From: an uncultured Selenomonadales bacterium
GTDB taxonomy: Bacteria; Bacillota; Negativicutes; Selenomonadales; Selenomonadaceae
Assembly: GCA_947307055.1 (NCBI GenBank)
Contig: CAMZHX010000002.1
Span: forward strand, 62,001 to 126,000
Reading direction: 5' to 3'
DNA length: 64,000 nucleotides
Positions 24,919-61,097 of the stretch are shown here, piece after piece; positions within the stretch are counted from its first letter, which is position 1; each line of letters begins with the position of its first letter. The translations under genes were made by a program, and so were the position numbers. The notes beneath the pieces were generated by a model. That model saw only the letters and a program-made list of their open reading frames with translations, made no database searches and was not told the origin of the DNA.

Positions 24919-25230
24919 TTACATGCTATCATAGTTGACGAATTGATAGCCTTGCCTCTGCCATTTGTTTTTGAAAGTCTCTGCTTGCGCCGCCGAAATC
25001 TCGAATTTGCCATTGGAAGAATCTTTCATTTTGTTAACGTTTAAGGTTTTGCCTTCCGTGAAAAGCTCCTCGACGCCGCGCTTAGTCAAGCTGTAATTCG
25101 ACTTGACGCCGATAAAACTTTTGCCATTAAGTCCTATAGTTTCCTTAAAGTAAATGTAGCCGCCGCCGCCCGTGACATCGTCAAGTTCATCGTCCGACAT
25201 GATTTCATCTTTCAAAATTTCCTTCGACAT
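24919..25230 (-). CDS. GG-leader exported peptide (bacteriocin-type signal), 103 residues
   Basis: The N-terminus SKEILKDEIMSDDELDDVTGG is a double-glycine leader closely similar to that of the gene at 60630 (EILKDEIM, acidic residues, GG). Such leaders are cleaved by peptidase-containing ABC exporters. The mature part of about 80 residues (starting GGYIYFKETIGLNGK) has no cysteine and no membrane span, so it is not an obvious lanthipeptide or pore-former. The ATG at 25230 has GGAGG upstream. A promoter with TGTAAC lies at 25266-25292. No exporter or modification enzyme is adjacent. Confidence 0.65.
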   Translation of the reverse strand: MSKEILKDEIMSDDELDDVTGGGGYIYFKETIGLNGKSFIGVKSNYSLTKRGVEELFTEGKTLNVNKMKDSSNGKFEISAAQAETFKNKWQRQGYQFVNYDSM

Positions 25231-25265
25231 AGTTATCAGCCTCCAGTTTTATTTCATATTCATTG

Positions 25266-25292
25266 TACCATAATTTGTCAAGTTTTGTTACA
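25266..25292 (-). promoter_or_regulatory. TGTAAC-type promoter of the GG-leader gene
   Basis: On the reverse strand TGTAAC (25287-25292) is followed after 17 bases by GGTACAAT. This resembles, less perfectly, the TGTAAC-N16-CGTATAA elements at 60157, 60474 and 61072. A TTGACA-17-TATGAA overlaps it and is an alternative housekeeping promoter. Confidence 0.4.
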
Positions 25293-58742: not shown

Positions 58743-59617
58743 TGAAAACGGTCGCCGGTGTCGAAGTCGTAAAGCGATTCGGCTACTGTGATAATTTCTT
58801 CAAAATCTTTACGCGCAGAATATTTTTTGACGTTGCGATAAAAATTTTCCCTGTGAATCACGACCGAACGAATAAACGCGCCGGCGTAATCCGCGAAAAT
58901 TCCTTGCGCGTCGAGCAGTCGCCAAAAATTTTTAACGCTGTCTTCGGTGTCAATGTCGTATTCGATTCTGTGGAGGATTCGTGATAAATCTGCGCGAATT
59001 TCCGGTGTGAACAGCGATTTTATCAGTGAAAGTTCCGCCATCGACCGATTCGCCCTTACAAGCCAAAATTCTGCTTGCAAATCGTCTTCAAAGTTGTCAA
59101 ATCCCGCATTTATCAGCCTATCAAGCAATTCCGGCGGCGCATTTCGTTTCAACGGCAAAATTTGCACCTCTTTATAGAACGACGCGTATAAAAGCCGCTC
59201 AAATTCCGTTCGCGTGTACATTCTCGATACGATTCCGCCAAATACTCCGCGCATTAGCTTTTCCAATACCTTCCAATGCCGAATATTTCTAAAACTCGTC
59301 AGCCAACTGCCCGTTTGCTTTAAAAATGTCGAAAATCCCGCCGCTATGTCTTGCGGATTCGTCACGACTTCCAATGTCAAGTCGCCGATGATTAAATCGA
59401 AAAATTCTTCATCAAATGGCAGCCGTTCTTCCCGATAATTCAAATAAATCGTGTTTTTGTAGCTCAAATCCTCGTCCGTCGTCACAAAATATATTTCCGC
59501 CGCAGGAAATCTTTTGCGCAACGGCTCAATGTATGCAAAACTCTCCACGACCAATATTTTTTTGAAAAAATCGTCGCCATTTACCATTTCAAGCAAGCTC
59601 GGTTTAATTTCTTCCAT
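58739..59617 (-). CDS. Class I SAM-dependent methyltransferase-like protein
   Basis: 292 residues. The N-terminal half has the order of a methyltransferase fold (ILVVESFAYIEPLRKRFP, IYFVTTDEDLSY, LPFDEEFFDLIIGDLTLEVV), but the glycine-rich SAM loop is weak (VVESFAY), so it may be inactive or divergent. The C-terminal half is helical (SRILHRIEYDIDTEDSVKNFW). It overlaps the S2P gene tail by four bases. AGGAGG precedes the ATG at 59617. Function unknown. Confidence 0.6.
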   Translation of the reverse strand: MEEIKPSLLEMVNGDDFFKKILVVESFAYIEPLRKRFPAAEIYFVTTDEDLSYKNTIYLNYREERLPFDEEFFDLIIGDLTLEVVTNPQDIAAGFSTFLKQTGSWLTSFRNIRHWKVLEKLMRGVFGGIVSRMYTRTEFERLLYASFYKEVQILPLKRNAPPELLDRLINAGFDNFEDDLQAEFWLVRANRSMAELSLIKSLFTPEIRADLSRILHRIEYDIDTEDSVKNFWRLLDAQGIFADYAGAFIRSVVIHRENFYRNVKKYSARKDFEEIITVAESLYDFDTGDRFH

Positions 59618-59638
59618 AAATTTTCCTCCTTTTAATCG

Positions 59639-59677
59639 AAAAAACCCCTCGACGAGCCTCCGAAGGGCTTTTTTTGC
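59639..59677 (-). terminator. Terminator of exported-protein module 1
   Basis: Reverse-strand stem CCCTTCGGAGG with CGAGGGG, ending in TTTTTT; A/T-rich on both sides, so possibly bidirectional. Same CCGAAGGG motif as at 60214 and 60531. Confidence 0.75.
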
Positions 59678-59687
59678 TTGCTAAATG

Positions 59688-60119
59688 TCATTTCAAACTA
59701 TTTTCGACAAAACTCCAAACTTTTGGCCATGCACTATCTTTTCCATCCATATTTATTGGAACAATTTCGCTTTCTTTAGCCGAATATTTCGTGTCTCCGT
59801 CGTAATCGTCCAGTAGGCAATAAATTTTCTTGCCGTTTTCCTCATAAAAGCTAACTAGAGACACAATATCACTCATTTCAAATAGCGTTGATTGAAATTC
59901 TACCTTAACTATTGCGCTAAATCCGTCTCTTCGGTTGAATTTTGGATATTGTTTCGAGTCGGTGCCGCGTTTTATCGAATTTTTATCGACGTACGTTATA
60001 AGTTTTACCTTATCTTTTGTTTCTCTTATGTCTATTTGCTCCCAATTTGCCGCTGACGCTTCACCGCTTATAAATATCGACATTATCAACGCCATTGCTA
60101 TCGAAAATACTTTCTTCAT
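59688..60119 (-). CDS. Secreted small protein (module 1), Sec signal peptide
   Basis: 143 residues with a clear Sec signal (KKVFSIAMALIMSIFISGEASA, cleavage after ASA) and a mature domain ANWEQIDIRETKDKVKLITYVDK-type that resembles the surface-adhesin-E-like family of small secreted proteins (W near the start, YVDKNSI segment). One cysteine only. Start: ATG at 60119, eight bases after AGGAGG; the frame upstream is promoter. It is transcribed from the TGTAAC-N16-CGTA promoter at 60157-60182 and ends at its own terminator. Confidence 0.65.
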   Translation of the reverse strand: MKKVFSIAMALIMSIFISGEASAANWEQIDIRETKDKVKLITYVDKNSIKRGTDSKQYPKFNRRDGFSAIVKVEFQSTLFEMSDIVSLVSFYEENGKKIYCLLDDYDGDTKYSAKESEIVPINMDGKDSAWPKVWSFVENSLK

Positions 60120-60156
60120 TATCATTTCCTCCTTAAATTGTTCTTTCTTTCCATTA

Positions 60157-60182
60157 TACGTTAAAAATCCGATTTTGTTACA
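60157..60182 (-). promoter_or_regulatory. ECF-sigma-like promoter of module 1
   Basis: Reverse strand: TGTAAC (60177-60182), 16 bases, CGTA (60157-60160) within CGTATAATGG. The spacer AAAATCGGATTTTTAA is nearly the same as in modules 2 and 3, and upstream AGCTAAACTC is also shared. Confidence 0.65.
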
Positions 60183-60213
60183 GAGTTTAGCTAAATTTTT
60201 TAGTTCAGTCAAT

Positions 60214-60248
60214 GAAAAAACCCTCCGACAGGTGCCGAAGGGCTTTTG
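60214..60248 (-). terminator. Terminator of module 2
   Basis: Reverse strand: CCCTTCGGCACCTGTCGGAGGG followed by TTTTTT; separates module 2 from the module 1 promoter. Confidence 0.75.
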
Positions 60249-60264
60249 TTAGCTTGTTTCGCGT

Positions 60265-60432
60265 TTACCTAACATGAAGTATCCGACCTTGATTATCAAT
60301 ATTTACGTCCGGTTTAACATTGTCCACGTTAGAACGAGCATAAAAGCCGCCCGCGACCTTTTCGAGTTCCTCATCGCTCAATTTTTCCAGCGCGTCATTG
60401 ATTTTTTTCAAGTTTTCCTCACGTGTTGTCAT
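60265..60432 (-). CDS. GG-leader exported peptide (module 2), 55 residues
   Basis: Leader TTREENLKKINDALEKLSDEELEKVAGG: an acidic helix ending in the double glycine after LSDEELEKV, typical of bacteriocin-type or Nif11-like leaders. The mature peptide would be 26 residues starting FYARSNVDNVKPDVN, without cysteine. The ATG at 60432 with AAGGAG upstream is chosen; the frame before it is promoter. No lantibiotic-type enzyme or exporter is adjacent. Confidence 0.65.
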   Translation of the reverse strand: MTTREENLKKINDALEKLSDEELEKVAGGFYARSNVDNVKPDVNIDNQGRILHVR

Positions 60433-60473
60433 TTTTATCAGTCTCCTTTGATTAAATTTTTTTCTGTCCCTTA

Positions 60474-60499
60474 TACGTTGAAAATCCGTTTTCGTTACA
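60474..60499 (-). promoter_or_regulatory. ECF-sigma-like promoter of module 2
   Basis: Reverse strand: TGTAAC (60494-60499), 16 bases, CGTA (60474-60477) in CGTATAAGGG; about 42 bases upstream of the start codon. Confidence 0.65.
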
Positions 60500-60530
60500 G
60501 AGTTTAGCAAAAAAATTTTATCCAGTCAAT

Positions 60531-60568
60531 GAAAAAACCCCTCAGCAGCTTGCCGAAGGGCTTTTTTT
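60531..60568 (-). terminator. Terminator of module 3
   Basis: Reverse strand: GCCCTTCGGCAAGCTGCTGAGGGG followed by TTTTTT. The stretch 60569-60629 between it and the gene holds nothing recognisable. Confidence 0.75.
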
Positions 60569-60629
60569 GTTCAGATTGCGACCGTAATGCCGAATTATCG
60601 ACGAGCCGCGTTTTTGAGCCTAAATTGTT

Positions 60630-60977
60630 TTAGATTTGGAACTGTTTGGGATCCATGTCATGGTAGCCAGCCTGATTAAGTGCCATTTCAACTGCCTGGT
60701 TGCGCGAAATCGGTTGACCGCTCTTTGTGAAATATTCGCTTGCTCCAAAATCATTGTACTTAACTTTAATTCCGAGCTTGCTGTAGAGCGAAGTAACTCT
60801 TGCCGCAATTCCGTTGACGTTATTGTTGGTGATTTGGTAGAGATCATATGCCTCCATTCTCCCGCCCATTGCGTTGAAGAGTTTCGTGTCGAGTGACAAT
60901 TCATCGCGGTTGCCGCCGGCGACCTTTTCCAGTTCCTCTTCATTCATGATTTCGTCCTTCAAGATTTCGTTTGCCAT
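60630..60977 (-). CDS. GG-leader exported protein (module 3), 115 residues
   Basis: Leader ANEILKDEIMNEEELEKVAGG closely matches the one at 25230 (shared EILKDEIM and GG). The mature part of about 93 residues (NRDELSLDTKLFNAMGGRM onwards) is soluble, has no cysteine, and contains an EF-like acidic/asparagine-rich stretch (YQITNNNVNGIAAR). The ATG at 60977 has AAGGAG with the same GGAGACTGATAAAAATG context as module 2. Likely exported by a peptidase-containing ABC transporter encoded elsewhere. Confidence 0.65.
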   Translation of the reverse strand: MANEILKDEIMNEEELEKVAGGNRDELSLDTKLFNAMGGRMEAYDLYQITNNNVNGIAARVTSLYSKLGIKVKYNDFGASEYFTKSGQPISRNQAVEMALNQAGYHDMDPKQFQI

Positions 60978-61071
60978 TTTTATCAGTCTCCTTTTAAAAT
61001 TGTTTGATATTTTTTCTTTGCTGTCGATTCAGCTTGTCCTTTGCGGCTCTATTTTTTCTTTCTGTCCCTTA

Positions 61072-61097
61072 TACGTTCAAAATCCGATTTCGTTACA
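61072..61097 (-). promoter_or_regulatory. ECF-sigma-like promoter of module 3
   Basis: Reverse strand: TGTAAC (61092-61097), 16 bases, CGTA (61072-61075) in CGTATAAGGG. The element is almost identical to that of module 2 over about 40 bases. Confidence 0.65.

Follow-up and report, generated by a model that had tools for sequence, protein, structure and literature searches.

In a 64,000-nucleotide stretch of DNA from an uncultured Selenomonadales bacterium (the window, analysed here at its full length), three consecutive minus-strand genes between positions 59639 and 61097 raise the question of what transcribes them and to what end. They had been predicted to be separate modules, each with the same promoter and its own terminator, and the window bears this out. 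An exact TGTAAC-N16-CGTATAA is located upstream of all three genes on the minus strand, at 61069-61097 (module 1), 60471-60499 (module 2) and 60154-60182 (module 3), and a terminator with a CCGAAGGG stem is located downstream of each. The terminator regions, folded on the minus strand, gave -21.8 kcal/mol (z -4.9) at 60524-60574 for module 1, -19.7 kcal/mol (z -5.0) at 60214-60256 for module 2 and -17.3 kcal/mol (z -2.3) at 59636-59680 for module 3. A simple terminator scan listed only one candidate, on the plus strand, with 1.6 expected by chance.

The products of modules 1 and 2 carry double-glycine leaders, both ending in EELEKVAGG, and the product of module 3 shows a Sec-type signal by eye, as originally proposed. 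The module 1 gene (60630-60977, minus strand) is an open reading frame with a ribosome-binding site; it encodes 115 aa and belongs by family alignment (A2) to the globular family of the regulon. Its predicted model reached a pLDDT of 77, and no clear PDB match was found for the predicted structure. The module 2 gene (60265-60432, minus strand), likewise an open reading frame with a ribosome-binding site, encodes 55 aa with a 26-residue core, FYARSN...GRILHVR; similar cores were found behind motif copies in three other genomes (G001, G007 and G051). Both products can be assigned to the double-glycine-leader type by a GG-ended leader with a conserved hydrophobic and acidic pattern, and are predicted to be processed by a C39 peptidase. 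In a 28-member alignment of the double-glycine family, G21 was invariant and G22 was conserved in at least 90%. None of the module products matched a Pfam bacteriocin model at cut-off. The module 2 product scored 14.8 with the bacteriocin leader model TIGR01847 (cut-off 15.7), and with the Nif11/NHLP leader models it scored 16.3 against a cut-off of 32.3 (TIGR03798) and 12.6 against 50.9 (TIGR03793), while the module 1 product matched neither of the latter two models at E up to 1. One regulon member of genome G001 exceeded the Nif11/NHLP leader cut-off, with 35.4 bits against 32.3.

The module 3 gene (59688-60119, minus strand) encodes 143 aa, and its protein is possibly Adhesin_E-like (Pfam PF16747). 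A paralogue on contig C8 of the same genome is 69% identical and has the same promoter. Among the 15 of 20 homologues examined for the motif (L249-L253 were left out), it was present at four full-length homologues of at least 62% identity, the window gene included, and absent from the other 11, ten of which are about 42% identical or less and one of which is broken. A further double-glycine-leader gene of the window, 103 aa, was found at 24919-25230 on the minus strand by profile match (E 4e-6) and by sequence. Its promoter appears by eye to have decayed to TGTAAC-N17-GGTACAA at about 25263-25292, and a similar protein in G001 (contig C34) is preceded by an intact motif.

Searching the window with up to two mismatches gave four matches, the fourth being a two-mismatch site at 59163. 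Shuffled windows gave a mean of 1.05 matches at this setting and reached four in 2 of 100 shuffles; the statistical strength of the motif in the window is the exactness of its copies. The genome-wide search that had been proposed as a check was carried out on the genome of the window (2.46 Mb in 56 contigs, 88% complete), and yielded 13 exact copies and two with one mismatch, with no exact copy of the reversed pattern. These counts are the profile of a selected site. With up to three mismatches, no enrichment was seen across the whole genome (421 matches versus 970 for the reversed control). Among 66 congeneric genomes, 378 exact copies were found in 37 genomes, compared with nine reversed copies (hand-summed). 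When any spacer from N8 to N24 was allowed, the 66 genomes gave 412 copies, with 110 for the reversed control; since the other 16 spacings together add only 34 copies, the N16 spacing is rigid.

The sites were also compared by their flanks, reduced to 39 that were non-redundant at 55% identity. Conserved in these, apart from the two fixed blocks, were an A/T-rich tract at about -20 to -9, RAA just after the -35 block, and an RCARAAA block 4-10 nt past the -10 block, where the transcription start would lie. It might be supposed that the motif is a mere relic of recent cassette duplication with no regulatory role, as many copies are arranged in tandem with similar flanks and 46 same-strand neighbouring pairs lie no more than 1.3 kb apart. 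We regard this as very improbable, because the 39 non-redundant flanks hold both blocks, unrelated gene types share the motif, and a TGTAAT form of it, with different spacers, occurs in a second genus of the family. A family-wide search of 189 genomes found at least one TGTAAY copy in 10 of 30 genera. In 5 of the 16 genomes of genus g3, which has the same motif copies as loci L176 and L177, 2-11 sites were counted, most of them TGTAAT, and outside genera g1 and g3 no genome in this search had more than four sites.

The genes behind the motif were classified by an automatic start and leader pattern, in which some leaders end in GA, GS or SG; four leaders were added and ten Sec-type calls were made by eye. 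In the genome of the window, the 13 sites precede eight double-glycine-leader genes, two paralogous Sec-type genes, a protein of about 64 aa behind an ECF sigma factor gene, and a 1681-aa RTX-like protein; one is without a clear gene. Altogether 144 of the 378 exact sites were read, comprising 102 of 103 in G000 (the genome of the window), G001, G003, G004, G007, G008 and G014, all nine of G002, and 1-4 each from 23 more genomes. These sites, two pairs of which share one downstream gene, precede 114 double-glycine-leader genes, nine genes of the ~64-aa protein, ten encoding Sec, lipoprotein or transmembrane products, one RTX-like gene, and ten that are other or none. The motif was not equally common before housekeeping genes: at all but 10 of the 144 sites, the product is plausibly exported or leader-like. 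Its placement mostly before double-glycine or Sec-type genes upholds the idea of a regulon of exported proteins, each with its own promoter.

A profile of the double-glycine family gave 12 matches at E up to 1 in the genome of the window. The canonical promoter was present at eight of these, and it was the promoter that had brought seven of the eight into the profile. A ninth match is the gene at 24919-25230 with its degraded promoter, another comes second after a gene with a promoter and neighbours a radical-SAM gene, and two further matches are weak. At locus L003:2976-5149 (G000:C3), a motif-driven GG gene is followed by a second GG-leader gene, with the ten-residue core RHFAGCFRGW, and then by a radical SAM/SPASM-like enzyme, which scored below every curated cut-off in the 25 families shown. 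This may be a new modified-peptide system. At L004 (G000:C3:165673), a full promoter and a downstream terminator were recognised by eye with no recognisable gene between them; this may be what is left of a cassette, or a small RNA.

According to PMC8103513, ECF factors contain only sigma2 and sigma4 domains joined by a linker of less than 50 residues, and their target promoters have AAC in the -35 and CGT in the -10 element. Six sigma-70 region 2 matches were found in the genome of the window. One of them is a compact ECF factor of 181 aa, encoded by the only intact ECF sigma gene of the genome (C1:123483-124025, outside the window); the remaining ones are probably RpoD-, FliA- and SigH-like, judging from length and neighbours. 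The C1 protein scored 128.7 bits with the sigma70-ECF model (cut-off 42.9) and has Sigma70_r2 at 23-87 and Sigma70_r4_2 at 122-174, and thus shows the hallmark architecture of the two domains with a linker below 50 residues. TGTAAC-N16-CGTATAA fits the AAC and CGT boxes, is linked to the ECF gene and co-occurs with it.

The linkage is a physical overlap. In the genome of the window, the stop codon TAA of the ECF gene sits inside the TGTAAC (-35) of a motif copy, and in 17 of the 30 best-scoring orthologue loci, the window's genome included, TGTAAC-N15-17-CGTAT begins two bases before the ECF stop codon, 13 of the 17 being the exact motif. The other 13 loci had the motif within 150 nt downstream in five cases and none there in eight. 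Upstream of the ECF gene, no exact motif was found within 500 nt in any of the 30 loci over the stretch for which sequence was available; in L047 an exact motif is located about 520 nt upstream. At L046 (G014:C141), a 29-nt tandem repeat (GTCGTCGATTTAGCTAGCAAAACTAACCG) starts shortly after the ECF gene, and the contig ends about 130 nt past the gene. Of the 27 genomes with an ECF match of at least 259 bits, 24 had five or more sites, against 5 of the 39 others (Fisher p 5e-10, with the cut chosen post hoc and phylogeny uncorrected), and these 39 include seven with a more diverged ECF orthologue. In the seven genomes whose best ECF protein was 58-65% identical, exact sites numbered zero in G009, G010, G012 and G042, and one, three and four in G035, G029 and G028, respectively. 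Against the ECF reading, besides these low counts and the lack of an exact motif before the ECF gene, G018, G021, G051, G053 and G062 have 9-18 sites with no ECF orthologue detected, possibly owing to assembly loss in G018 and G062, and G056 and G059 have a close ECF orthologue and one site each.

Two further explanations for the motif were weighed. The first is that the housekeeping sigma factor reads the genes from TTGACT-N17-TAAACT, and that TGTAAC...CGTATAA, lying in the 5′ leader, acts as an operator, with AAATCGGATTT as its palindromic spacer, or as an RNA element. The original prediction did not weigh the fact that a sigma-70-like TTGAC[TG]-N16/17-TAAACT ends just upstream of the motif in all three modules, and such a hexamer pair (at least 9 of 12 positions) was found just upstream at 66 of 143 sites read and at 7 of 13 in the genome of the window. 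It was present, however, at only 5 of the 39 non-redundant sites, and the sites at the 3′ end of the ECF gene, on contigs C16 and C6, at C3:143164, at the RTX-like gene and at the gene-less C3:165673 matched the hexamers at no more than 7 of 12. The palindromic spacer is lost in divergent copies, in which both blocks and the 16-nt spacing are kept, as the search itself imposes. The base after CGTATAA is variable in the 39 non-redundant sites, unlike sigma-70 TATAAT; the -10 block of module 3 does read TATAAT, and 26 of the 144 sites read have a T directly after CGTATAA. Transcription from the housekeeping promoter is therefore considered unlikely.

The second, which formed part of the original prediction and was not supported, is that of an envelope-stress regulon like those of SigW and SigX in Bacillus. 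In its favour, the consensus of SigW-like promoters has AAC- and CGT-type boxes as in the motif. These boxes are hallmarks of ECF promoters (PMC8103513). The C1 protein remained below the cut-offs of the NCBIfam models for SigW (87.0 against 209 and 81 against 243.1) and SigX (75.4 against 260), no zf-HC2 domain (PF13490), the sole anti-sigma family searched, was found in the 88%-complete genome, and the motif precedes genes for exported peptides and not genes of envelope maintenance. An envelope-stress regulon is thus unsupported and improbable, as the sigma factor fails both models and its relatives sit with NHLM peptide exporters, a context of peptide secretion. The ECF-type promoter itself is sustained by a two-block motif of rigid spacing in 37 of 66 congeneric genomes that is tied to one ECF gene, and motif counts, gene content, the overlap with the ECF stop codon, co-occurrence and the exporter context all support an ECF-type regulon of exported proteins. 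We consider it quite probable that the three modules are members of one regulon, that of the C1 factor, which would drive exported-peptide cassettes.

NHLM exporters are linked to the NHLP/Nif11 precursor families. Two NHLM ABC1/ABC2 pairs in the genome of the window exceeded the equivalog cut-offs (ABC1, 970.8 and 988.2 against 853.3; ABC2, 743.1 and 714.0 against 709.4). The pair on contig C7 is adjoined by an NHLM HlyD gene (231.2 against 156.2) and has a TolC-family gene next to it, which is under its cut-off (132 against 225). The motif was not found in the loci of the exporter operons, which also speaks against the ECF reading. The NHLM exporters would handle the motif-driven GG-leader substrates. 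Among relatives, of which the best 80 of 178 were kept and 13 viewed closely, Anaerovibrio slackiae (L177) and a congener (L176) have the ECF gene directly behind NHLM ABC1/ABC2 genes; ABC2 scored 777 and 774 bits against 709, and the ABC1 frames are truncated where the locus ends. In both, TGTAAT-N16-CGTATAA follows the ECF gene, and then a GG-leader or small-protein gene. In a Schwartzia MAG, the ECF gene and a TolC-family gene (148 bits against a cut-off of 225) overlap, and GG-leader genes come after the ECF gene, with no exact motif there. In the genome of the window, L225 (G000:C45:109-4539) shows by eye an apparent broken third NHLM-type exporter followed by the remnant of an ECF gene, an order that matches the intact Anaerovibrio locus.

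The ~64-aa frame follows the ECF gene in 23 of 30 orthologue loci, two of them seen only in part. The protein was matched in 46 of the 66 genomes, with a single match in 42 of these. It has a leader-like end, ...LDEVAAAG; conservation is strong as far as AAAG and the tail beyond it varies, which would be more in keeping with a regulator or signal than with an effector. In G018 and G062 its gene is located behind a motif copy near a gene that by eye is pyk-like, away from any ECF gene; the same placement was seen in G014 and G061, which have an ECF gene on other contigs. In two relatives without the motif here (L166 and L168), a protein of the ~64-aa type with the tail ...AAAG is located upstream of the ECF gene and not downstream. 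The protein may be the control peptide of the regulon, either an anti-sigma factor or a signal. A more specific proposal takes the protein for a soluble anti-sigma factor whose tail resembles a leader and which the NHLM exporter removes from the cell; this seems doubtful. Export of FlgM gates flagellin genes in a comparable way. If the proposal were true, secreted peptides would be made only while export capacity is free, by way of a peptide-secretion ABC exporter.

Under the preferred reading, RNA polymerase with the C1 ECF factor would recognise TGTAAC-N16-CGTATAA before each cassette, and the cassettes, mostly single-gene and separately terminated, would be transcribed one by one. Most of them code for peptides or small proteins that bear a double-glycine leader, which NHLM-type C39-peptidase ABC exporters would cleave off while secreting the products; a minority of products would leave by Sec or type I secretion. 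The promoter that overlaps the 3′ end of the sigma gene would yield the ~64-aa control peptide. The motif and its spacing, the gene content, the ECF linkage and the presence of exporters are apparent from the DNA, and from these we infer that the C1 factor recognises the motif, how the products are exported and what the ~64-aa protein does. Most likely the products act on neighbouring cells or on the surface in a bacteriocin- or effector-like manner, which is the weakest step of the scheme.

TcdR/UviA-type sigma factors, which control toxin and bacteriocin genes of Clostridium and form a different sigma subgroup, resemble the proposed system as dedicated alternative sigma factors for secreted effector-like proteins. 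That ECF factors control ribosomal peptides is already known from MibX/MibW, which regulate the lantibiotic microbisporicin through several ECF promoters, and as with MibX an ECF factor would here drive production and export of a ribosomal peptide (PMC4973701). As described there, the MibX system comprises one gene cluster, the membrane anti-sigma factor MibW and the motif GAACC-N15-GCTAC, which the mibX promoter itself carries. Here, by contrast, the cassettes are unlinked, no anti-sigma factor was recognised, and the motif is located after the ECF gene and not before it. ECF factors typically, not universally, have a co-transcribed cognate anti-sigma factor and positive autoregulation (PMC8103513). 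As in the NHLP/Nif11 families (PMC2887384), leader-bearing ribosomal precursors are present here. NHLM_micro_ABC1/ABC2 exporters above the model cut-offs are a further likeness; unlike those families, the module 1 and 2 products fall below the Nif11/NHLP leader models. The word sigma is absent from the main text of PMC2887384. A dispersed cassette regulon, a promoter on the sigma stop codon and a Selenomonadaceae setting were not found in the literature searched. Neither bacteriocin nor promoter is mentioned in the main text of the genome paper on Quinella, where sigma appears only as a supplier name.

Quinella is an uncultured rumen genus that was found to be enriched in some low-methane sheep (PMC9585023). 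In relatives of Quinella (a label taken from the congeners), the searchable promoter exposes up to 27 exact sites in one genome, mostly before unnamed secreted peptides. A small repeat in one window is apparently part of a genome-wide secretion programme, and it offers a tractable case in which one ECF factor apparently runs dispersed and diverse double-glycine peptides without a recognised anti-sigma factor.
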